Positions 50,694 to 63,686 of a stretch of DNA of 64,000 nt are shown one piece after another. Below the pieces are notes generated by a model. It was not told the origin of the DNA and did no database searches. It saw only the letters and a program-made list of their open reading frames with translations. Every line of letters begins with the position of its first letter. Position 1 is the first letter of the stretch. This DNA comes from Pseudoalteromonas piratica. Lineage in GTDB: Bacteria; Pseudomonadota; Gammaproteobacteria; Enterobacterales; Alteromonadaceae. The stretch lies in the NCBI RefSeq assembly GCF_000788395.1, contig NZ_CP009889.1, positions 1,240,001 through 1,304,000 of the forward strand, given 5' to 3'. A program made the translations under genes and the position numbers.

Positions 50694-53600
50694 ATGATCG
50701 ATACAAATAAAGGTATCATTGCATGGTTTACTCGCAACCCTGTTGCTGCAAACCTGTTAATGATCATCATTTTGGTGGGCGGTTTATTTACTGCCATGAC
50801 CATTCGCAAACAAATGTTTCCGCAATTTGAAAACAGCTGGATGTCAATTCAAGTTGCATACCCTGGCGCTGCCCCACAAGAGGTAGAAGAAGGGATAACC
50901 ATGAAGATTGAAGAGGCATTAGAGGGGATGCAAGGCTTAGAGCGCTTGATCACTTACTCTAATCGCGGCTTTTCACAAACATGGATCCGCATCGATGAAA
51001 GCTACGACACCAAAGAAGTGCTAGATGAAGTTAAAATGCAAATTGACTCCATCTCAACGTTTCCTGATGGTATGGAGCGCCCAATTGTTGCGAAGGAAAA
51101 ATACCGCCAAGAAGTGATGTTTTTATCGCTGCACGGACCGTTATCACAACGCGATTTAAAAGATTTAGGCTCTAAAGTACACGATGAGTTACTTGCCTTA
51201 CCAGGAATTAATATTGCCGAATACTACAGTGGCTTACGCTATGAAATCGGCATCGAAATCAGCCCTGATAAATTACGTGAATATGGCTTAACATTTAGAG
51301 ATGTGGCCAATGCGGTACGTGCATCCTCAGCAAATATGTCAGCGGGTCAAATTCGCGCTGAAAATGGCTATATTTCAATGCGTGTTGAAAACCAGGCTTA
51401 CCGTGGTAATGAGTTTGAAAAACTACCGTTACTTAGCTTACCTGATGGTAGCCAGATCTTATTAGGTGACGTAGCCACGATTAACGATGGCTTCCAAGAA
51501 GGCATTCAATTCTCTAAATTTAATGGTGATAACTCGCGCACCTTCTTTATCGGTGCATCAGAAGATCAAGATATCACTAAAGTAGCGGATACAATTAACA
51601 CCTACCTTGATAAAAAAGCAAAAGAACTTCCTGAGGGTGTGACGCTAGAATCGTTTGTTGATATGACCTACTACCTTGAAGGTCGATTAAATATGATGAT
51701 TGAAAACATGGCATGGGGTGGCTTATTAGTTATTCTCAGCTTAGCGCTATTCTTACGCATCAAACTCGCGTTTTGGGTAATGATGGGTTTACCTGTGTCG
51801 TTCCTGGGTGCATTGCTATTTATGCCTTTAGGCGGCTTAGATATCACCATTAACATTATGTCGCTATTTGCCTTTATATTGGTACTGGGTATTGTGGTGG
51901 ATGATGCCATCGTCATCGGTGAGTCGGCCCATAGTGAAATTGAAAAGCACGGCCACTCAACCGAAAATGTGATTCGTGGTGTAAAACGCGTTGCCGTACC
52001 TGCAACCTTTGGTGTGTTAACCACTATTGCAGCTTTCTTACCAATGATGCTAGATACTGGTCCTGAAGCCGCTGTATCCAAATCAATTGGTGGCGTAATT
52101 ATTTTATGTTTAATTTTCTCACTCATTGAATCTAAACTGATTTTGCCTGCGCACTTAGCGAAGATGAAGTTAAAACCGCACAACCCTAAAAATCCACTTC
52201 ACCGTATGCGTGAGGGTTTAGATGGCGGGTTAAAACGCTTTATTGATAACTACTACCGTCCAATGATTGTTAAATTCATTGAGTTCCGTTACCCAGTTAT
52301 CTTCGCATTTATTGGCTTAATGATTATCAGTGGCGGATTATTCGCAGGTGGTTTCGTTAAATTTGTTGCCAACCCAAAAATCCCCCATGACTTTGCCAAT
52401 ATTAATATTGATATGGAGCAAGCAACCGCAGAACGCACTACCCTTGAAACCGCACTGCAAGTTGAACAGCTTATCTTGAACGAAGACAAACTAATCGAAC
52501 AAGAGTTTGGTCAAAAGATGGTTGAAGATATTTCGGTTCGCCTACAAGGCCGCACCGGTGCACGTATTATGGCTAAACTAGTCGACCCAGATCTGCGCCC
52601 TATGGATACCTTTGAACTAGCTGATCGCTGGCGTAGCAAAATGCCAGAGTTCTCAGCAGTAAAAACACTTAATATTCGTGACAGCATTGGTGGCAATGAC
52701 CGTGATGATGGCGATATTAGCTTCCGCTTGGAAGGCAAAGACATGGCTGAACTACGTTTAGCTGCTGCTGAATTAAAAGCTCACCTCAATACCATTAAAG
52801 GTGTGGGGGATGTGAACGATTCAATGCAAACAGCGACCGATGAAGTGCAGTTTGAACTAAAACCTGTAGCCTATAGTTTAGGCCTAACGCTCGCGGATGT
52901 TGCATCACAAGTGAGCTTTAGTTTTTACGGCCTTGAAGCGCAACGTATTTTACGTGACGGTGAAGAAGTACGCGTAATGATCCGTTACCCAGAAGAAGAG
53001 CGTAACGCGGTGAGCCGAATTCATGATGTACGCATTATCACCCCTCAAGGTGCTGAAGTGCTACTTTCTGAAGTTGCTGAAGTGAAACTGGTTGATGGCG
53101 TAAGCAGCATTCGCCGTGAAAATGCGCGCCGTACAATTAACGTGTGGGCGAGTATTGACGCTGAACAAGTAGAACCCTTCAAAGTGGCTGAAGATATTCG
53201 TGAAGAATACATTCCAACATTACTTGAGAAATACCCAAGTATCACTACGAACTTAACAGGTCGTGTACAAGAAGAAATGGATTCTATCTGGGAGCAAATG
53301 AAAAACTTCATTATCTCGTTAATGGTTATTTATAGCTTACTGGCAATTCCACTTCGCTCGTACTCGCAACCACTGCTGATTATGTCGGTTATTCCATTTG
53401 GTATTATTGGCGCCATGTTTGGCCACATGTTCTTAGGCATGACAATGAGTGCACTATCGATGTTCGGTATCATTGCTGCGGCGGGTGTAGTTGTAAATGA
53501 CTCATTAGTTATGGTGGACTTTGTGAACCGTGCGCGAAAAGAAGGTGTAGCACTTAAAGACGCTGTGGTAGAAGCCGGTTGTAAACGTTTCCGCGCTATT

Positions 53601-53852
53601 TTACTAACATCAGCAACGACGTTTATTGGTTTAATTCCAATTTTAAGTGAAACCAGCTTACAAGCTCAGCTTGTAGTGCCAATGGCGGTATCGCTGGCAT
53701 TTGGGGTACTGTTTGCAACGGTGATTACACTAGTATTAATTCCATGTCAGTACGTGGCATTGGAAGATATCAAAGGTCTTATTAGACGAGGCAAAGAGAA
53801 AAAGGAGCTTTCTCAATCAGACATTGATGACGACGCTACTGTAAAAATCTGA
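50694..53852 (+). CDS. RND efflux permease (AcrB/MdtB-like superfamily)
   Basis: A 1052-aa inner-membrane pump of the expected HAE-RND size. There is one helix at ~12-30, two large periplasmic loops (~40-330 and ~565-865) and two six-helix bundles. The proton-relay motif is present as GIVVDDAIVIGESAH (Asp-Asp near 403-404) and the second repeat has GVVVNDSLVMVDF. The branch is the divergent group with short loops and cargo that is often unknown. Part of its 3' coding region (53552-53646) has a decayed near-copy at 60186-60279. Confidence 0.92.
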   Translation: MIDTNKGIIAWFTRNPVAANLLMIIILVGGLFTAMTIRKQMFPQFENSWMSIQVAYPGAAPQEVEEGITMKIEEALEGMQGLERLITYSNRGFSQTWIRIDESYDTKEVLDEVKMQIDSISTFPDGMERPIVAKEKYRQEVMFLSLHGPLSQRDLKDLGSKVHDELLALPGINIAEYYSGLRYEIGIEISPDKLREYGLTFRDVANAVRASSANMSAGQIRAENGYISMRVENQAYRGNEFEKLPLLSLPDGSQILLGDVATINDGFQEGIQFSKFNGDNSRTFFIGASEDQDITKVADTINTYLDKKAKELPEGVTLESFVDMTYYLEGRLNMMIENMAWGGLLVILSLALFLRIKLAFWVMMGLPVSFLGALLFMPLGGLDITINIMSLFAFILVLGIVVDDAIVIGESAHSEIEKHGHSTENVIRGVKRVAVPATFGVLTTIAAFLPMMLDTGPEAAVSKSIGGVIILCLIFSLIESKLILPAHLAKMKLKPHNPKNPLHRMREGLDGGLKRFIDNYYRPMIVKFIEFRYPVIFAFIGLMIISGGLFAGGFVKFVANPKIPHDFANINIDMEQATAERTTLETALQVEQLILNEDKLIEQEFGQKMVEDISVRLQGRTGARIMAKLVDPDLRPMDTFELADRWRSKMPEFSAVKTLNIRDSIGGNDRDDGDISFRLEGKDMAELRLAAAELKAHLNTIKGVGDVNDSMQTATDEVQFELKPVAYSLGLTLADVASQVSFSFYGLEAQRILRDGEEVRVMIRYPEEERNAVSRIHDVRIITPQGAEVLLSEVAEVKLVDGVSSIRRENARRTINVWASIDAEQVEPFKVAEDIREEYIPTLLEKYPSITTNLTGRVQEEMDSIWEQMKNFIISLMVIYSLLAIPLRSYSQPLLIMSVIPFGIIGAMFGHMFLGMTMSALSMFGIIAAAGVVVNDSLVMVDFVNRARKEGVALKDAVVEAGCKRFRAILLTSATTFIGLIPILSETSLQAQLVVPMAVSLAFGVLFATVITLVLIPCQYVALEDIKGLIRRGKEKKELSQSDIDDDATVKI

Positions 53853-54534: not shown

Positions 54535-57500
54535 CTATAGTGTTTCGGCAACTGGACTACCTAACAAATCCGTGTGGATATAGATAATTTTCTTTTTAGA
54601 TAATGGTTCCCAAACATTACTCCATGCAGTACAACTTTCATCGGCAAAACAGGCTTTAACACGGTAGGCTCGTTTTACTTCATCGGCCGGTAAAATATAT
54701 GAAGTTGCTGTGTCAGACTGCGCAGGTTGCGCAGGTTGCCAATTAATTTCAATATAGTTGCCACAACTTTCACCACATGCGTAATACTGAAGTTCATAAC
54801 TTTCTGCATTAGCGATGATTGACCAGGTTAATGTACCTTCAGTTTTTTCAAGTAATGGAATCGTGACGCCGTCAGGTTCAGTAATTACAAAATCACCATC
54901 ACTATTTTGAATTAGCACAAGATCGTTACTGCCATCGGATAAGGTTATATCCACTAGACCGTCTTGGCTCAAATCTGTAACCGTTACAGAATAACTACTC
55001 AAACTAAAATTGCTATAAGCATCCAAGGCATGCCATGCATCTTCAGTTAATGAGTTAATTTGCCATTCATCATTGACTTGAATTAATGACAAATAACGCA
55101 CGCCAGCTTCAGTGGCAATCACTACATAATGGGTATTACCGCTTTGCATCACCCCTGAAACATAAACATTGAGTTTGGCTTTGTCATTGCCACAGCCTTT
55201 ATCAGCATTGCAAGCTTCAAGATAAAACTGATGTTTACCTGGCATGTTAATTTGACGATTGTGCTTTGTCGCCTCACTATTTTGCAAAAAGACAAAATCA
55301 TTACCGTTAGGCTTAAGCACCCCAAGATTAAAAGTCACTGCTTCTTGGTAATTTGGACTCATAGTCCAAGTAAAACTAACAATATCTCGAACAGTAATAT
55401 TAGCGTTATCAACGGTAAACGTATGCGGTGCAGGTGGTGGCCCTTGCACTGTCACTTCTACTTGCTGAAGTTGCTCGCTACAGCCATGTGCATTACATGC
55501 TCGAATATCGATAGTTTGAGTGCCGATGCGTTGAATACCAGTATCTCTTCCACGACTAATGGCATGAACCTTAACGTTATCTTCCCATAAAAATCTTGGC
55601 ACAGTAGGATACCCATCACCACTTGGCTTAGTGACATGAAGTTGATAGTAAAAATCTTTGCTGTAGTTATCAGGTCGCTCCCAAAATAATTGAATCGACT
55701 CACCTGGCTCAATGGAGGTTTTATCTACAAAAAAATTATTTACCGTTAATGGCTTTTCCGTGAATGAGTAAATGCCGTTCGATACCCGAAAACGCCCTTT
55801 ACAACCTGCCCAGCGGCACGCTTTAACACGGTATTTAGTCCCAGCTGTTGCTACGCCAGTAAAAGCTAATGCAGTTGTATCAAAAACTGTTAATGTGGTT
55901 AAAGTTTCACCATCATTTGCAGTATAGGTGCGTTGAGGATCGCCGCTTTGTGGCGTAACTGGCTGCCAACTTACCCCGTTATCGGTACTTTTATCTAACA
56001 AATATCCTAGTGCAGATGCAGTTTCCGACCAATCGAGATAAGTCTTATTGTCATCAACTTTTACAGTTAAATGATATGGTTCACGAACGATCACAGTTGT
56101 CGCGGTAACATAGCCAGGCTCTGGACAATTACCTATCCCTGAACAGGCAATACGAAAATCATAAATCCCCGTTTCTAAAGGCACATCGCTTTCAAACTCA
56201 GTATTAACGCCTTTATAAAACGTTTGCCACGCGGACTGCTTACGTTCCTTATACTCAAGATGGTATACGGCATTGGGTTGATAAAATTGACTCCAGCCCG
56301 TTTTCACTAAACCCGAATAGTTAGAATAATACGACGTTAATGTTGGGTCTGTTTGTGCTAAGCCACCACCTTCGTAAAGCTGCACATCATCTAAGGTGAT
56401 ATTAGCGCTCCCTTCGTCCATTAAACGCACTGAAAAATATAAACGCTTAATTTTATTTTCAGGCTTATCTTCACTGTCTAACCACACAGCGCCTTTAAGT
56501 TGAATATTTCGCCCGATATCACTGGCGTCAAACTCAAGTTTTTGCCCTTCAACACGATGGTTATAACCATCGTAATAAGCAATCGGTAAAATGCTAATGC
56601 GGCTGTCTTTATCAATACTGTTAATGCGTAAACGGCCAGTGATAGTTGCACCGTTTAAAATAGGATAATCTTCTTCTGCATATCGATGAATATACTGTAC
56701 TAAACCGTAATTTTTTAAATCAATGGTTAAGCTTTTTTGTTGGTTGATTGGTGCGCTACTATCAATAGCGAGCGTTGCCCCGACATCAGCCTCAAATTGC
56801 ACTTGCCCTTGCTCAAAGCCAGGATCTGAAATTAATCCATTCAAGTTAACAATGGGTAATACTTTCGAGTATTCATCTTCGCCACATTGCTGTGTTGCAC
56901 AGGCGCGCACTCGGTATTGTAATTCTGAGCCCACTTCATAAGCGCTATTAGTGCTGGTTGCTGAACTCGTCATTTGGCGGGTGTTATCTGCCCCAGAAGC
57001 TTGGGTTTTCTTGGCGTTAACCCATTGTTTGTGTAATGCTTTTGCCGCTTGAATACCTTGAGTAACCACCTCGTTAGATAATACCACGTGGTTTTGGGTA
57101 TGAATTTGCCCAGAATAGTTATCACCCTGATATTCAACTCCTGTTCCCTGCTCAGGGTTCATCGCTTGCCAGCTTTGGCCATTATCTGCGGTTTGCTCAA
57201 CGGTGTAACCAGCAACTTGGGCTAAATCACTCCAATAAACGTGAACGCTTTGTTGTTGGTGATCAAATTCTGCATTGACAAAACTGGGTTTTTGTACAAT
57301 GTCGATAGTACTAGTGATATAGCCTTCGGCTGGACAACCTTGCACCCCATCACAGCTTAAGCGAAATGTATAGGTGCCCGACGCTAAGGTGTTAGCCGTA
57401 GCAAAATAACTTTGCTCACCTTGATATAGCTCTACCCACTCATTGCTACCTGCCAACTGAAAAGACAAGGTATAGATATACCCTTCGCCGCCAAAGTTAT

Positions 57501-57693
57501 GCCAATCAATCAATGAACTTTCTTGAAAGTTATTGCTTATTAGTGCTATTTCAGGTTGCGGTGCCGACAGCGGGGTATCTGCGTTAATGTAGTGAACAAC
57601 ATTTGGTAGCCACCCCATCGACGCGTAACCTGAAAAACTAAACACAAGTAAATTGGCCAAGCCTAACAGCTTTAGTAATTTATTCCTTGTCAT
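54535..57693 (-). CDS. Secreted multidomain Fn3/Ig-like protein truncated at an Rhs core
   Basis: A 1052-aa exported protein. The start at 57693 follows the upstream stop by 1 nt, with aggag 7 nt before; the longest frame has seven more codons. After a signal segment it has two homologous Fn3-like blocks (~30-230 and ~450-640), an intervening galactose-binding/CBM-like jelly-roll (~285-445), two Ig-like domains with the ACN.HGC type Cys pair (~645-845), an FG-GAP-like stretch (~850-935) and a last Fn3 domain. The final residues are YIHTDLLGSPVAET followed by Leu-stop. That string is the classic start of an Rhs/YD-repeat core, where homologues continue for hundreds of residues. The gene is therefore probably a truncated Rhs-type polymorphic surface protein. 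It is the last gene of the minus-strand island operon. Confidence 0.8.
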   Translation of the reverse strand: MTRNKLLKLLGLANLLVFSFSGYASMGWLPNVVHYINADTPLSAPQPEIALISNNFQESSLIDWHNFGGEGYIYTLSFQLAGSNEWVELYQGEQSYFATANTLASGTYTFRLSCDGVQGCPAEGYITSTIDIVQKPSFVNAEFDHQQQSVHVYWSDLAQVAGYTVEQTADNGQSWQAMNPEQGTGVEYQGDNYSGQIHTQNHVVLSNEVVTQGIQAAKALHKQWVNAKKTQASGADNTRQMTSSATSTNSAYEVGSELQYRVRACATQQCGEDEYSKVLPIVNLNGLISDPGFEQGQVQFEADVGATLAIDSSAPINQQKSLTIDLKNYGLVQYIHRYAEEDYPILNGATITGRLRINSIDKDSRISILPIAYYDGYNHRVEGQKLEFDASDIGRNIQLKGAVWLDSEDKPENKIKRLYFSVRLMDEGSANITLDDVQLYEGGGLAQTDPTLTSYYSNYSGLVKTGWSQFYQPNAVYHLEYKERKQSAWQTFYKGVNTEFESDVPLETGIYDFRIACSGIGNCPEPGYVTATTVIVREPYHLTVKVDDNKTYLDWSETASALGYLLDKSTDNGVSWQPVTPQSGDPQRTYTANDGETLTTLTVFDTTALAFTGVATAGTKYRVKACRWAGCKGRFRVSNGIYSFTEKPLTVNNFFVDKTSIEPGESIQLFWERPDNYSKDFYYQLHVTKPSGDGYPTVPRFLWEDNVKVHAISRGRDTGIQRIGTQTIDIRACNAHGCSEQLQQVEVTVQGPPPAPHTFTVDNANITVRDIVSFTWTMSPNYQEAVTFNLGVLKPNGNDFVFLQNSEATKHNRQINMPGKHQFYLEACNADKGCGNDKAKLNVYVSGVMQSGNTHYVVIATEAGVRYLSLIQVNDEWQINSLTEDAWHALDAYSNFSLSSYSVTVTDLSQDGLVDITLSDGSNDLVLIQNSDGDFVITEPDGVTIPLLEKTEGTLTWSIIANAESYELQYYACGESCGNYIEINWQPAQPAQSDTATSYILPADEVKRAYRVKACFADESCTAWSNVWEPLSKKKIIYIHTDLLGSPVAETL

Positions 57694-57694
57694 G

Positions 57695-58036
57695 TTACGG
57701 CTCCTGATCTGCAATTAACGCCACAGATCGTGGTCGTTCAATACCGGGCGCGTGCTTGCAATCTCCCGCAGTTTTTACCTCGACCGATAACTGGTTTGCT
57801 ACCGCAGTAAGTAAAGTCGCATACATCATTTGACCTGAGCGAGTACTGAGCGCCACCGCCCAACGGTTATTCGTTGCAACAGAAACGCATTCAGGGCTAG
57901 CTTCTGTTTTTGAAGAATTGATAGAAAAATACAAGACATCCGCTTCAACATTGATGTAATCAACGGTACTGGCATGAAGACTAAATACTGGCAATGCCAC
58001 TAATGCAGTGCAAGCCAAAGTTAACAATCGCTTCAT
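57695..58036 (-). CDS. Small secreted protein, N-terminal-domain-only paralogue
   Basis: A 113-aa protein with a signal peptide to ~22, starting at the ATG at 58036 (aggaag upstream). The mature part is a diverged copy of the ~95-residue N-terminal domain of the next two upstream proteins: VDYINVEADVLYFSIN, two conserved Cys (SPECV and AGDCK), a GQMMYATLLTA helix and GIERPRSVAL. It has no C-terminal extension. Function is unknown. It lies in the operon 1 nt before the Fn3/Rhs-like gene. Confidence 0.75.
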   Translation of the reverse strand: MKRLLTLACTALVALPVFSLHASTVDYINVEADVLYFSINSSKTEASPECVSVATNNRWAVALSTRSGQMMYATLLTAVANQLSVEVKTAGDCKHAPGIERPRSVALIADQEP

Positions 58037-58040
58037 CAGG

Positions 58041-58814
58041 TTATTCTTCCTTGAATATGCATGGGCCATTGCCGCAGATAGGATCTTGGTGAGGTGTGGC
58101 TATTGTTGCCCGCTGATTAGGATAATTATATGAAACACATTCACCACTATTATTCTTAATGCTTTTAAAGTTATAATAGGAGCTGCTACCTGTAGCCGAA
58201 AGCAAATTCCCATCGTTATAGCCAATATTTTTGACATATCTTGGAGTATTCGCTCCATGATATTGAACTAAAGCAGCTCCCTGACATTCCGTTTCGCTAA
58301 AATATAGCTGGTGTTGAGGGCTGTAATATATCGTCCAAATTGTATTTCTATATTCTCTTAGTTTTGTATTATCATCTAACGGGAAGTAATAGAAATGATT
58401 AATATTCTCAGAGTTATAAATACGCCCAAGCTTTGTGACACCATCGCTTTTGTATAAGTACATGGCTTTGGCTGAGCCTCCAGCGGCACTAACATCTGGC
58501 ATTAAACTAATACTCTGTGCTCGTTCAACCCCAGCAACATCGTTACAGTCATTGCCACTCACGACACTTACCGCTTGTTTGCTCGACATCGCAGTGATTA
58601 ACAGCGAATACATTGCTCGGCCTGCTTCAGTTAACAAAGAAACGCCATAGTGCTGATTGGTTTCAGCGATTGCACAACTGGGGATTGTATGCGTTTTATC
58701 GGCTGCTAACGTAAAATGGACATTGTTGCCATCAACATTTAAGTAAGAAATTTTAGCATTTGCCTGAGCAATTATTGGCGCAAATAGTATTGCCAGAGAT
58801 AAAAGAAGTTTCAT
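58041..58814 (-). CDS. Secreted protein with conserved N-terminal domain and variable C-terminus (paralogue 2)
   Basis: A 257-aa protein starting at the ATG at 58814 with aagga upstream. The signal peptide and first ~110 residues are nearly identical to those of paralogue 1 (same strings KISYLNVDGNNVHF and NQHYGVSLLTEAGRAMYS). The C-terminal ~145 residues are unrelated to it: rich in Tyr and Asn, four Cys near the end, with AKAMYLYKSDGVTKLGRIY and YFSETECQGAALV. This looks like a binding or effector module, not one I can name. It overlaps or nearly abuts its operon neighbours. Confidence 0.78.
   Translation of the reverse strand: MKLLLSLAILFAPIIAQANAKISYLNVDGNNVHFTLAADKTHTIPSCAIAETNQHYGVSLLTEAGRAMYSLLITAMSSKQAVSVVSGNDCNDVAGVERAQSISLMPDVSAAGGSAKAMYLYKSDGVTKLGRIYNSENINHFYYFPLDDNTKLREYRNTIWTIYYSPQHQLYFSETECQGAALVQYHGANTPRYVKNIGYNDGNLLSATGSSSYYNFKSIKNNSGECVSYNYPNQRATIATPHQDPICGNGPCIFKEE
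58500..58814 (-). repeat. Duplicated N-terminal domain coding block (copy in paralogue 2)
   Basis: The nucleotide sequence is about 85-90% identical by eye to 59311-59625 and then ends abruptly where the C-terminal domains differ. Confidence 0.65.
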
Positions 58815-58836
58815 GAGAATCCTTGTCAATGACTTA

Positions 58837-59625
58837 TCATTTAACACACGAAATTTTTAAAGAACTGCTGCAACTTTCTATAACTAACTTACCCACTGCG
58901 GTTAAAGAAATACCCTTTGCACCGTTAGAGTTACTTTCCCAATCACTACACGAAGCATTTGCTCGAAGAGACCAGTAGCTAAAATTTCGACTAGATCCAG
59001 AGGATTCATAAATGAGGGTTTCGCTCGATTTCAATACTAACGTTTCTTGAATACCATAATGGCCTGAATTAGCAACGCCGATCGTTTGAATGGCATCAAG
59101 TAACCATACGCTTTCACTATGTGGGTACTGATTAATAACATTAATATAGTCATCCCAAAGCATGACTCGTGAACCTTCATACTGTGCAGCACACATTTCT
59201 GATGCTGTTCTTATTGCACCACTTCCTGTACTTCGATTAAAAGCACCATTAACTGGAGTGGTATAACCAACCCACCGTAACTTAGCACTTTCTGTTGACT
59301 CGACTTGAGGCGTTAAAATAACACTCTTTGCACGCTCAACCCCTTCAACATCACTACAATCGTTACCACTAACTACACTAACTGCTTGTTTGCTTGACAT
59401 GGCAGTGATCAACAGCGAGTACATCGCGCGCCCCGCTTCAGTTAACAATGAAACGCCATAATGCTGATTGGTTTCAGCGATTGCACAACTGGGGATGGTA
59501 TGGGTTTTATCGCTTGCCAAGGCAAAATGGACATTGTTGCCATCGACATTTAAGTAAGAAATTTTGGCATTTGCTTGAGCGATAAATGGCGCACATAGGA
59601 TGGCCAGCGATAAAATAGTTTTCAT
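58837..59625 (-). CDS. Secreted protein with conserved N-terminal domain and lectin-like C-terminus (paralogue 1)
   Basis: A 262-aa protein with a signal peptide to ~19 and aggac before the ATG. The N-terminal domain (20-115) carries two Cys (IPSCAIAET, NDCSDV). The C-terminal domain (~120-262) has the pattern of secreted C-type-lectin-like proteins: VGYTTPVNGAF, ASEMCAAQYEGSRVMLWDDYI, WSLRANASCSDW and a final SCSSSLKISC. It shares only the N-terminal domain with paralogue 2. Function is unknown. Confidence 0.78.
   Translation of the reverse strand: MKTILSLAILCAPFIAQANAKISYLNVDGNNVHFALASDKTHTIPSCAIAETNQHYGVSLLTEAGRAMYSLLITAMSSKQAVSVVSGNDCSDVEGVERAKSVILTPQVESTESAKLRWVGYTTPVNGAFNRSTGSGAIRTASEMCAAQYEGSRVMLWDDYINVINQYPHSESVWLLDAIQTIGVANSGHYGIQETLVLKSSETLIYESSGSSRNFSYWSLRANASCSDWESNSNGAKGISLTAVGKLVIESCSSSLKISCVK
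59311..59625 (-). repeat. Duplicated N-terminal domain coding block (copy in paralogue 1)
   Basis: See the partner at 58500-58814. The similarity runs from the start codon to the end of the GVERAKS strand and then stops. Confidence 0.65.
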
Positions 59626-59730
59626 GATGTCCTTTAAAAATATTTTGATGATTTTTTACAGAAAAAAGGGGGCAAAATTTATTGGCTACGCCTGTTATAA
59701 ATCATTCCACAACCAAGGCTTTCGCTTCTA

Positions 59731-60072
59731 TTACAACGACAGAAACATACCCAATGAATTGAAACCAATAGTTGGATTACACGCACTTATGTAAAAGCTG
59801 TGGACTCCATTTTTATTAATAAAGCGATTAAAAGAGTTTGAAGTATAACCTCGCCTAAATGTTAACCAATGAGATGCTCCTGGTTTTAAAACATTTAGAT
59901 CATAATATGTGGCATTTTGTGGTGTGTTCCACGACAGCGTGACTGTATTTCCACGATAGATACTAGTTTTATCAATTGTAAAGTTAACAGAGCCAATACT
60001 AGCTTGAGCCTGGAAAACCGTTAAGAATAAAACCCAATAAAAAAAAGCTTTCAAACCTATGACTTTAAACAC
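59731..60072 (-). CDS. Short secreted Ig/Fn3-like protein, probably a truncated paralogue
   Basis: A 113-aa protein with a signal peptide (to ~24) and one Ig-like domain: VNFTIDKTSIYRGNTVTLSWNTP, LNVLKPGASHWLTF, VHSFYISACNP. These strings match the two Ig-like domains of the 1052-aa protein in this operon (VDKTSI, LGVLKPNG, FYLEACNAD). The frame ends soon after the ACN motif, where the long protein continues. It is likely the N-terminal remnant of a second large gene, though a functional short form cannot be excluded. It is the first gene of the minus-strand operon. Confidence 0.6.
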   Translation of the reverse strand: MFKVIGLKAFFYWVLFLTVFQAQASIGSVNFTIDKTSIYRGNTVTLSWNTPQNATYYDLNVLKPGASHWLTFRRGYTSNSFNRFINKNGVHSFYISACNPTIGFNSLGMFLSL

Positions 60073-60185
60073 AAATTTCCCTTTACTTATAAGCTTTCAA
60101 AATTTTCGCTATGATAGAGCACGTTAAATACTTGTCAATTTTTTATTTACAAAAATGTAAGCAAATGTAAAAGGTGTCGCTTTAA

Positions 60186-60279
60186 ACTTAAAGAAGCTGT
60201 GGAAGAAGCAAGTTGTAAACGTTTACGCGCTCTTATTAACATCAGTAACGACTTTTATTGGCTTAATTCCAATTTTAGG
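60186..60279 (+). pseudogene. Fragment of an RND permease gene
   Basis: About 95 bp align to 53552-53646 of the intact permease gene with roughly 86% identity by eye, beginning acttaaaga and ending aattccaatttta. A 2-nt deletion breaks the frame. It is a relic of a duplicated or second RND permease gene. Confidence 0.7.
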
Positions 60280-60332: not shown

Positions 60333-60700
60333 ATGAGTTTTGAAAGACTAAGATGTTACCCGGCATACTCAAATGCAAATCTTGTTGCCTCCTACCATCA
60401 AAGCGCTGGGTGTACAGATTGTTTAGATAATGGCGTACCTGTTACAGATTTATCTGGTGCAGCAAATAGCCAAACAATCTACAAGATTGAAGTACCAGCC
60501 AATCAAACACTCACAGTATCTACTGCTAATGGTTCTGGTGATGTTGACTTATATGTTAAAAAGGGAAGTCAGCCTACGACATCTGATTACGATTGTAGAC
60601 CTTATCGCTGGGTAATAATGAAACTTGCAGCTTAACTTACTACATTATGCTCAATGTTTACAGTACGCTTGCTGGTGTTACACTTACGGCAAGCTATTAA
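60333..60700 (+). pseudogene. Frameshifted C-terminus of a secreted protease: two PPC domains
   Basis: The frame from 60333 encodes the end of one pre-peptidase C-terminal (PPC) domain (YSNANLVASY) and most of a second (GVPVTDLSG, IYKIEVPANQTLTVST, GDVDLYVKKG, DYDCRPY). After a one-base deletion near 60610 the second continues in another frame as GNNETCSLT, YYIML and GVTLTASY, with its stop at 60698-60700. Such tandem PPC domains end secreted proteases in Pseudoalteromonas; the catalytic part is absent. Confidence 0.72.
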
Positions 60701-62531: not shown

Positions 62532-62756
62532 TTTATATCCATATAACAAAAATAGGTTTTTAAACCGGGCACCCAGATGGGCGATAACTTTAAATAGCAT
62601 GTCAAACGGTACAAAAAAAACTTACACAAGTAAATAAAAACATATTTAAATCATATAATTAAATAATTTAATAGCGTTCGAAATGAATAAAACCTCATAT
62701 ATGACTTTTACACTACACTTATAATTTTAATGCAGTCTGTTTCGAGGGATTATGAA

Positions 62757-63458
62757 ATGGCAAGATTAAAACGGATTTGCCCTCCAAACATTTCACAACA
62801 TATTATTCAGCGCGGCAATAATCGACAAATATGTTTTGCGTGCGAACAAGACTTTGAAGCCTACATCGCTTGGTTAAAGCAGTATAGCGAAGAATACAAT
62901 GTACAGGTACATGCATGGGTTTTGATGACAAATCATGTCCACTTATTGTGTACACCTACTTCTCAAGAGGGAATTAGTAAGTTGATGCAGTCTCTTGGCC
63001 GACAATATGTCAGGTACTTTAACAACACTTATAAGCGCACTGGTACACTTTGGGAAGGCCGCTTCAAATCATGCCTAGTCGATAGTGACAACTACTTGCT
63101 CACACTTTATCGATATATAGAACTAAACCCTGTTCGCGCCCATATGGTCAATCACCCAGCCGAATACAAATGGTCGAGTTATCAAATAAATGCTATCGGG
63201 AAACCAAGTTCACTTTGCACAGCACATGCTGCTTATGAATCTTTAAGTAGAACCAAAATTCAATGGCTCAAAGTTTATACGCTGCTTGTAAATGAGCCAT
63301 TGTCACACAGTCAGATCGAGCAGATTAGAATTCAAACTAACAAAGGAATGGCGATTGGAAGTGAGAAATTTAAGGAACAAATTACCGCTTTAACTGGACA
63401 ACGCGTACAACCCTCCAAGTTAGGCAGGCCAGCAAAAAGTAACATGGCGACAGACTAA
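62757..63458 (+). CDS. REP-associated tyrosine transposase (RAYT, Y1_Tnp family)
   Basis: A 233-aa protein. The HUH motif is H60-V-H62 in MTNHVHLL, and the catalytic tyrosine is in the conserved RYIELNPVRAHMV (~119-131). Other family strings are HIIQRGNNRQICF, GRQYVRYFNNTYKRTGTLWEGRFKS and EYKWSSY. A C-terminal ~60-residue extension has a basic RPAKSN end. The start at 62757 (gaggg upstream) is chosen over a frame starting nine codons earlier. RAYTs process palindromic REP sequences; a set of 66-bp repeats with inverted ends follows directly. Confidence 0.92.
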   Translation: MARLKRICPPNISQHIIQRGNNRQICFACEQDFEAYIAWLKQYSEEYNVQVHAWVLMTNHVHLLCTPTSQEGISKLMQSLGRQYVRYFNNTYKRTGTLWEGRFKSCLVDSDNYLLTLYRYIELNPVRAHMVNHPAEYKWSSYQINAIGKPSSLCTAHAAYESLSRTKIQWLKVYTLLVNEPLSHSQIEQIRIQTNKGMAIGSEKFKEQITALTGQRVQPSKLGRPAKSNMATD

Positions 63459-63516
63459 ATCAAAATCAGCTAGAGCTAACTATTTTGATTAAGTTTACTC
63501 TGGCCCTAGTTTTTAA
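63451..63516. repeat. 66-bp repeat unit A next to transposase gene
   Basis: It matches 63621-63686 at 58 of 66 positions. The inner ends cagactaaa and tttactctg form an imperfect inverted repeat. It begins inside the end of the transposase coding region. A partial tail copy, gtttactctgaccctag, follows at about 63517-63540. Confidence 0.7.
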
Positions 63517-63620
63517 GTTTACTCTGACCCTAGTTTTTATGAAGCAATCTTTTCTTCTGTCGTTGGATTAAAAATACAGGTAGTCCCGGTCAAGCAGACC
63601 AACAAAAAGAATCAAGGTGG

Positions 63621-63686
63621 CAGAGTAAATCAAAATCAGCAATAGATTACTATTTCAATTAAGTTTACTCTGACCCTAGTTTTTAA
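63621..63686. repeat. 66-bp repeat unit B
   Basis: The ends cagagtaaa (63621-63629) and tttactctg (63664-63672) are perfect 9-bp inverted repeats. A partial tail duplication (ctagtttttaatc) follows. Confidence 0.7.

Follow-up and report, generated by a model that had tools for sequence, protein, structure and literature searches.

Gene organization of the locus

We analyzed a 64,000-nucleotide (nt) stretch of the Pseudoalteromonas piratica genome (contig NZ_CP009889.1, positions 1,240,001 to 1,304,000), hereafter the window, whose coordinates are used throughout unless a locus (L) or genome (G) label is given. Between positions 59625 and 54535, its minus strand carries a row of four packed genes encoding proteins of 262, 257, 113 and 1052 amino acids (aa), with gaps of 22, 4 and 1 nt (Table 1). 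The first two share an N-terminal domain and differ in their C-terminal tips, the third comprises that domain alone, and the fourth is a large protein resembling immunoglobulin and fibronectin type III modules (Ig/Fn3-like), which ends in a short stretch of Rhs core sequence. The products of the row are likely secreted, judging from their signal-like N-termini. From comparative analysis, such large proteins are likely adaptors, each supplying a hairpin that completes an Rhs barrel, and the tipped proteins are likely exchangeable receptor-binding parts.

The original prediction for this locus, made from the sequence alone, had given the positions of the three smaller genes and described paralogues with a common N-terminal block, a third gene holding only that domain, and a shortened Ig-like relative beside the row; each of these points was recovered. 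The shared block of the tipped paralogues spans 300 nt at 85% DNA identity, and their N-domains are 92% identical as protein (79/86). The bare copy has diverged within the same domain family (31% identical over 106 residues), and the 113-aa Ig-like open reading frame (ORF) beside the row aligns with residues 758-833 of the large protein at 36% identity (E 4.6e-6). 'Ig/Fn3-like' is a loose name, since all Pfam matches of the 1052-aa protein to Ig and Fn3 families fell below curated cut-offs (best E 3.7e-5). Elsewhere in the genome the shared domain has no clear copy; the single other match is very weak and stop-ridden (E 0.026; G000:C1:2147353-2147622). Promoter-like sites such as the one preceding the row numbered 18 in the region, against 19.9 expected.

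Table 1. Features of the gene row in the window, in order of transcription.
Feature	Position	Strand	Basis or remark
Promoter-like site TTGACA-16-TATCAT, precedes gene row	60111..60138	(-)	11/12 consensus match; consensus match only
113-aa ORF, one Ig-like domain; probably what remains of a further Ig/Fn3-like protein	59731..60072	(-)	similarity to large protein
262-aa likely secreted protein: predicted OB-fold N-domain and C-type-lectin/endostatin-like tip (type B)	58837..59625	(-)	
N-domain DNA block, copy 1	59309..59608	(-)	85% to copy 2
257-aa (from ATG) likely secreted protein: predicted OB-fold N-domain and Tyr/Cys-rich tip (type A)	58041..58814	(-)	
N-domain DNA block, copy 2	58498..58797	(-)	
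Bare N-domain copy, 113 aa, likely secreted	57695..58036	(-)	
1052-aa Ig/Fn3-like protein, likely secreted, ends in predicted donor hairpin	54535..57693	(-)	ATG at 57693
Codons of the C-terminal predicted donor hairpin, IIYIHTDLLGSPVAETL	54538..54588	(-)	

The tail of the large protein and its place in Rhs cores

The C-terminus of the large protein reads ...KKKIIYIHTDLLGSPVAETL; the final ~17 residues (IIYIHTDLLGSPVAETL) correspond in sequence to a predicted hairpin of the Rhs barrel. The label 'truncated Rhs-like' that the protein had been given proved wrong: no Rhs remnant was present past its stop in three frames over the ~130 nt examined, the protein gave no RHS_repeat match at E 1 and is core-like only in those ~17 residues, and the same ending recurs at the C-termini of other proteins. 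Its sequence is that of a protein whose end is a segment absent from Rhs proteins, and not that of a truncated Rhs. An exact-pattern search of the P. piratica genome placed this tail in two locations, one on each of two Ig/Fn3-like proteins; the second of these (locus L101) ends in a region 74% identical to residues 936-1051 of the window protein.

Across the ten residues that begin at the T of HTD, tail identity was 58% among 16 proteins from loci with the shared domain and 65% among 28 donors adjacent to Rhs genes. Identity in the ten residues ahead of the tail was 23% and 30%, respectively, and 7-9% at 11-60 residues earlier, in ungapped register. Tail proteins are 134-1370 aa long. After removal of their last 30 residues, 122/378 pairs of Rhs-adjacent donors were detectably similar and 256/378 showed no similarity at E 1e-3, compared with detectable similarity in 92/120 pairs from domain loci; the Rhs-adjacent donors are thus of many kinds, and those of the domain loci mostly one family.

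A solved Rhs shell offers a structural position for the segment. According to PMC10684867, the Tse5 barrel comprises 40 hairpins, for which YDxxGRLV is the consensus, and residues 1092-1168 form a C-terminal plug. The alignment of an intact-core relative to Tse5 (8cp6) runs through the HTDxLGTP segment, at chain positions 1015 on; assuming residue 48 to be the first of the chain, this segment would fall at about Tse5 residues 1062-1078, within the last barrel turns before the plug. The TDxLGSPV of the segment also resembles the YD consensus. Together, the YD-like motif and this homologous place suggest that the segment forms a hairpin, which may insert into an Rhs barrel in trans. An internal core piece on the C-terminus of another protein is unlike the outcome of simple gene fission, which would part N- and C-terminal portions.

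Other tails and arrangements were considered and set aside. A second tail (VxKLxAPxL) was rejected as a further docking strand, as the proteins bearing it are alike in their last Ig domain and carry no hairpin at the end. A YD-like tail on the domain protein of L063 was dropped as a donor, because the Rhs that follows it contains an HNDHLGRP segment itself; a comparable tail in L041 is a candidate. The Rhs reading also displaced the idea of an A2-like peptide threaded through a B-subunit ring.

Split Rhs cores and neighbouring genes for predicted donor tails

The second P. piratica locus, L101, lies ~8 kb away and holds both partners. Its Ig/Fn3-like protein (L101:10404-14516, minus strand) ends in KKKIIFIHTDLLGSPVAETKE, and 4 nt after this gene begins that of a 1571-aa Rhs protein with a signal-like start (L101:5684-10399). 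The core of this Rhs reads YIYLGKKLIAKYGDVEPAASIDESRQHYRPYGE and lacks the HTDxLGSPVAETD segment, which intact-core relatives carry at that place (YIYLANKLIAKDKGGTVTYLHTDNLGSPVAQTSASGSVTKRMHYLAFGE in L161, for example). RHS repeats and core were confirmed by PF05593 (E 2.4e-6) and by matches to solved Rhs shells; the single chain does not hold a complete core, the HTDxLGSP segment being absent. Across the P. piratica genome there was one Rhs core match (E 1e-10), in a core without the segment. Past DPDG, the L101 protein continues into a C-terminal extension, followed by two small downstream ORFs; the extension matched no Pfam family at E 0.01. This Rhs partner putatively carries a toxin.

We then examined Rhs proteins across 295 genomes of the same family, of which 72 matched a core query that was itself a split core and so favoured split matches. 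Only places with mostly long open frames were taken, stand-alone core-toxin modules falling outside the classification, and 60 Rhs proteins were classified, L062 and L101 included, with L231 (whose contig starts within the Rhs gene) and L232 set aside. A donor-tail gene lay next door to 42/44 split cores and to 0/16 intact cores (Fisher p 1.0e-12). The two split cores for which no such neighbour was found are L138 and L214, and placement was exceptional in three further cases: one gene intervenes in L157, the donor is about 310 nt away in L155, and in L154 (G043:C2:95000-104500) the donor is transcribed divergently from its split Rhs, so that the pairing needs no single operon. Three loci from another family of the order followed the same pattern (split with donor 1/1, intact with donor 0/2), bringing the totals to 43/45 for split-core and 0/18 for intact-core Rhs proteins. 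At about G043:C2 68900-96600, at least 14 short Rhs core frames (138-426 aa) follow a full Rhs on one strand, an array of stand-alone core modules.

The position of the break is matched by the length of the tail. Between two core landmarks, 30/31 split cores have 11-20 residues, versus 30-31 residues in 6/10 intact cores (the rest were not measured). In a second break class, the Rhs also lacks the following Y.PFGE stretch, and the donors end in such a stretch; eight of these donors have HTDxLGS or a like motif before it and two (L215 and L216) do not. Rhs proteins keeping Y.PFG were paired with tails lacking it in 31/31 cases (32/32 once L148, whose core reads QHAYPYG and was mis-scored by the pattern as lacking Y.PFG, is corrected), and Rhs proteins without Y.PFG were paired with tails ending in it in 10/10. 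The L215 and L216 donors, which keep YQPFGESIDN without HTDxLG, could show which part of the tail is needed.

In an Rhs tree from which the segment was excluded, the supported branches require a minimum of five switches between split and intact cores. Among five independent pairs, the donor went with the split core in 4.7 on average and never in the opposite direction, a number of pairs that cannot reach 0.05 in a sign test.

A constant domain with unrelated tips

AlphaFold2 models of the N-domain had a predicted local distance difference test (pLDDT) score of 92-97 across the domain, and their top Foldseek match was a cholera-like B subunit (2wv6; probability 1.00, with weak E-values). AB5 B subunits made up 45/50 and 46/50 of the structural matches listed for two models, many rows being the same protein. 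The domain is therefore predicted to be an OB fold of the AB5 B-subunit type. By sequence, no B-subunit family was matched in Pfam or NCBIfam at E 1, and the domain profile matched only CipA (E 0.43) and two unrelated chains among PDB sequences at E 10.

The domain was present in 14/295 genomes of the family, with a largest count of at least 15 in one genome, and in at least 11/394 genomes of an order-wide draw at E 1e-5; 36 loci gave 95 domain matches in 94 ORFs. We clustered 53 C-terminal extensions of 40-419 aa, separating afterwards two types that a common linker had merged. Type A was commonest (28/53), followed by C (7), D (6; four members from clustering and two placed by eye), B (4), the fibrinogen-like type E (2) and three singletons, the remaining three extensions (L041, L062 and L063) being large-protein-like. 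Beyond the clustered set, P0002 and P0005 also carry tip B, P0006 tip D and P0014 tip E. All 28 profile pairs among the eight tip types had HHalign probabilities below 3%, and precomputed Pfam matches identified PF00147 (fibrinogen-related) on P0014, P0015 and P0016. Among its relatives, the domain thus carries at least five mutually unrelated tips, the fibrinogen-like one included. Tip B of the window may be lectin-like in fold: its predicted model, part of it below pLDDT 50, appears similar to the C-type-lectin/endostatin fold, and the tip gave no match to endostatin or C-type lectins at the sequence level.

Constant domains are more alike within a locus than between genomes. N-domains of same-locus pairs with different tips averaged 64% identity (n=11; top values 91, 90, 88 and 84%, lowest 33%), versus 41% for the same tip type across different genomes (n=370). 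In Thalassotalea ganghwensis, the closest named relative, the N-domains of the two tipped paralogues are 93% identical; when same-tip proteins are compared between these species, their N-domains show 87% and 91% identity and their tips only 42% and 49%, a comparison in which the margins are small. Recombination or conversion of tips and constant parts would be expected to leave such N-domain likeness within genomes alongside diverging tips. The proposal of a constant domain joined to exchangeable, unrelated tips has therefore gained support, and neither of the outcomes that would have spoken against it was seen: the domain does not occur mostly alone and away from Fn3 or Rhs genes (below), and the tips are not one diverged family.

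Possible links between OB-fold proteins, adaptors and Rhs barrels

An Ig/Fn3-like or Rhs gene lay at most four ORFs away on the same strand, fusions counted, from 76 of the 84 strong domain copies (a count that excludes 10 weaker of the 94). Of 27 assessable bare copies, 17 directly precede such a gene. An Rhs core match was found in 9/14 genomes with the domain versus 63/281 others (p 0.0014). Three arrangements tie the components more closely: in L062, a 322-aa protein combines the OB domain with the tail 14 nt before a split Rhs; in the L059 row, a domain protein is accompanied by two long-class donors and the beginning of a gene resembling the Rhs of L213, cut by the contig end; and in G079, the OB domain heads a 2546-aa SpvB-TcdB-RHS giant that a tail protein precedes. 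The same genome contains, at L040-L041 (G079:C1:2277000-2316800), tandem units of OB-domain and Ig-like genes with four exact-pattern tails in 22 kilobases (kb), ending in the giant.

From gene order and fusions such as these, the small proteins may dock on the large one. The original prediction had the small proteins perhaps docking on the large surface protein; direct comparative evidence was obtained instead for insertion of the large protein's tail into an Rhs barrel, and not for attachment of the small proteins. Two observations weigh against such a link to the small proteins: many domain loci have Ig partners without a hairpin, and the window's own donor, which presumably uses the Rhs 8 kb away, has no adjoining Rhs gene. 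In L042-L056, the Ig partners of OB-domain proteins end right after a like last Ig domain, in V.KL.AP.L and without the Rhs hairpin.

The alternative that survives best has the tipped OB-fold proteins acting as free lectins or surface binders, secreted from the same gene row but never touching the Ig/Fn3-like protein or Rhs. The hairpin-less Ig partners fit this account, as do the 10/27 bare copies not directly followed by an Ig/Fn3-like or Rhs gene. The fusions of the domain to the tail in L062 and to TcB/Rhs giants speak against it, as does the proximity of most strong copies to Ig/Fn3-like or Rhs genes, and we regard it as unlikely, though a serious contender.

A second alternative concerns the tail: a break at a recombination hot spot could have severed a full Fn3-Rhs fusion, leaving the tail as a vestige without a role. 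The tail is indeed a piece of Rhs core sequence, longer core pieces remain in L059 and L172, tandem arrays in G079 repeat units ending in it, and the tail proteins of domain loci are mostly related to one another. A vestige sits poorly with a tail far more conserved than the residues preceding it, even among donors with no other detectable similarity, with neighbours that lack the matching piece in nearly every case, with two break classes that match their donors, and with the clean sequence past the stop of the window protein. We consider it improbable; on the grounds of conservation, split-core neighbours, unrelated donors and the missing remnant, a truncation scar was likewise rejected as the principal explanation.

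Still less credible is a role for the tail DNA as a recombination site for swapping upstream modules. The tail is common to different upstream proteins and tandem arrays exist, but codons differ in 66% of identical residue pairs across 32 tails, as expected of conservation as protein and not as a DNA site, and the downstream split Rhs lacks the sequence, leaving no matching DNA partner there. That the tips are a single family diverged past recognition by rapid change is equally implausible, the similar length of types A and B (~150 aa) being outweighed by the profile comparisons, by differing predicted secondary structures and by Pfam's recognition of the fibrinogen-like tip.

Flanking sequence

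An RND-pump-like gene (50694-53852) lies on one side of the locus, and on the other a fragment at 60186-60277 is 87-88% identical to its 3′ part (53552-53645), as if the island had arrived by recombination inside such a gene. Farther upstream of the row lie a short ORF (60333-60635) that looks like a truncated pre-peptidase C-terminal domain and an ORF (62730-63458) resembling a REP-associated tyrosine transposase. A 103-nt repeat (82%) occurs at and after the end of the latter, in the 63414-63686 region.

Discussion

The locus combines a shared DNA block, unrelated tips and a conserved tail, and the wider family adds an association of split cores with tail neighbours and a match between break position and tail length. 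On balance, we favour a reading in which the Ig/Fn3-like protein donates its tail as a hairpin to the Rhs barrel ~8 kb away, with the tipped proteins as its exchangeable glycan-binding targeting parts. The Rhs shell and the Ig/Fn3-like protein would first be exported separately. The tail would then close the last barrel turns, the best-supported of the predicted steps. Bare and tipped OB-fold subunits would come together on the Ig/Fn3-like protein, possibly in a mixed ring, which is the weakest step, and the tips would finally bind target glycans or proteins and bring the Rhs cargo there. With two donors and one acceptor in the P. piratica genome, adaptors could compete.

Rhs/YD-repeat toxins (Tse5, RhsA, Rhs1) share with this family the RHS repeats, a core with ARYYDP...DPDG and matches to solved shells (8h8a, 7q97 and others); here, in contrast, a segment is missing from the core and sits on the C-terminus of a neighbour, and the N-terminus appears signal-like by eye. 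In TcB-TcC, a YD shell barrel is made of two chains. The present system would likewise build a YD shell from more than one chain, and the OB-domain giant carries SpvB and TcdB_midN, but here the partner holds one short segment, not half a barrel, and is variable. The TcB/TcC complex of Tc toxins is named in PMC8636562. Chaperone-usher donor-strand complementation, by which a subunit is completed by a partner's strand, is similar in that the strand is partner-supplied and differs in completing an Ig pilin, not a YD barrel. We found no description of a donated Rhs hairpin, or of a core split in this way, in the open-licence PMC literature, subscription papers and preprints lying outside it, including the consulted portions of PMC10684867, PMC8636562, PMC3482391 and PMC9120245.

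The small proteins resemble AB5 toxin B subunits in their predicted OB fold. In pertussis toxin, the jointly encoded S2-S5 subunits are partly bare and partly extended by a lectin-like domain, and the window locus likewise encodes bare and lectin-like-tipped subunits side by side. In contrast to AB5 toxins, the window domain has no sequence match, its tip is C-terminal, its partner is Ig/Fn3-like or Rhs, and no enzymatic A subunit was found, as no enzyme family scored above cut-off in the partner protein. PMC9120245 describes B subunits that lack A subunits and the evolution of A and B independently of each other. By analogy, the OB-fold proteins may form a mixed ring of tipped and bare subunits on or near the Ig/Fn3-like protein.

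A broader version, which we advance tentatively and hold to be rather less probable than the reading above, is that Rhs toxins of Alteromonadales are modular holotoxins: a barrel minus one hairpin, into which any hairpin-ended secreted protein plugs as an adaptor. In P. piratica two adaptors would compete, one of them bringing an AB5-like mixed ring whose recombining lectin tips would give changing receptor specificities. If real, hairpin donation would supply a docking rule for Rhs toxins that can be read from sequence — a gapped core together with every protein of the genome whose C-terminus fills the gap — so that target finding by such Rhs proteins could be approached through a set of testable adaptor-toxin pairs. 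It would also mean that a toxin barrel can be completed in trans, at either of two break positions, and that an AB5-type fold can hold exchangeable tips outside the known AB5 toxins.

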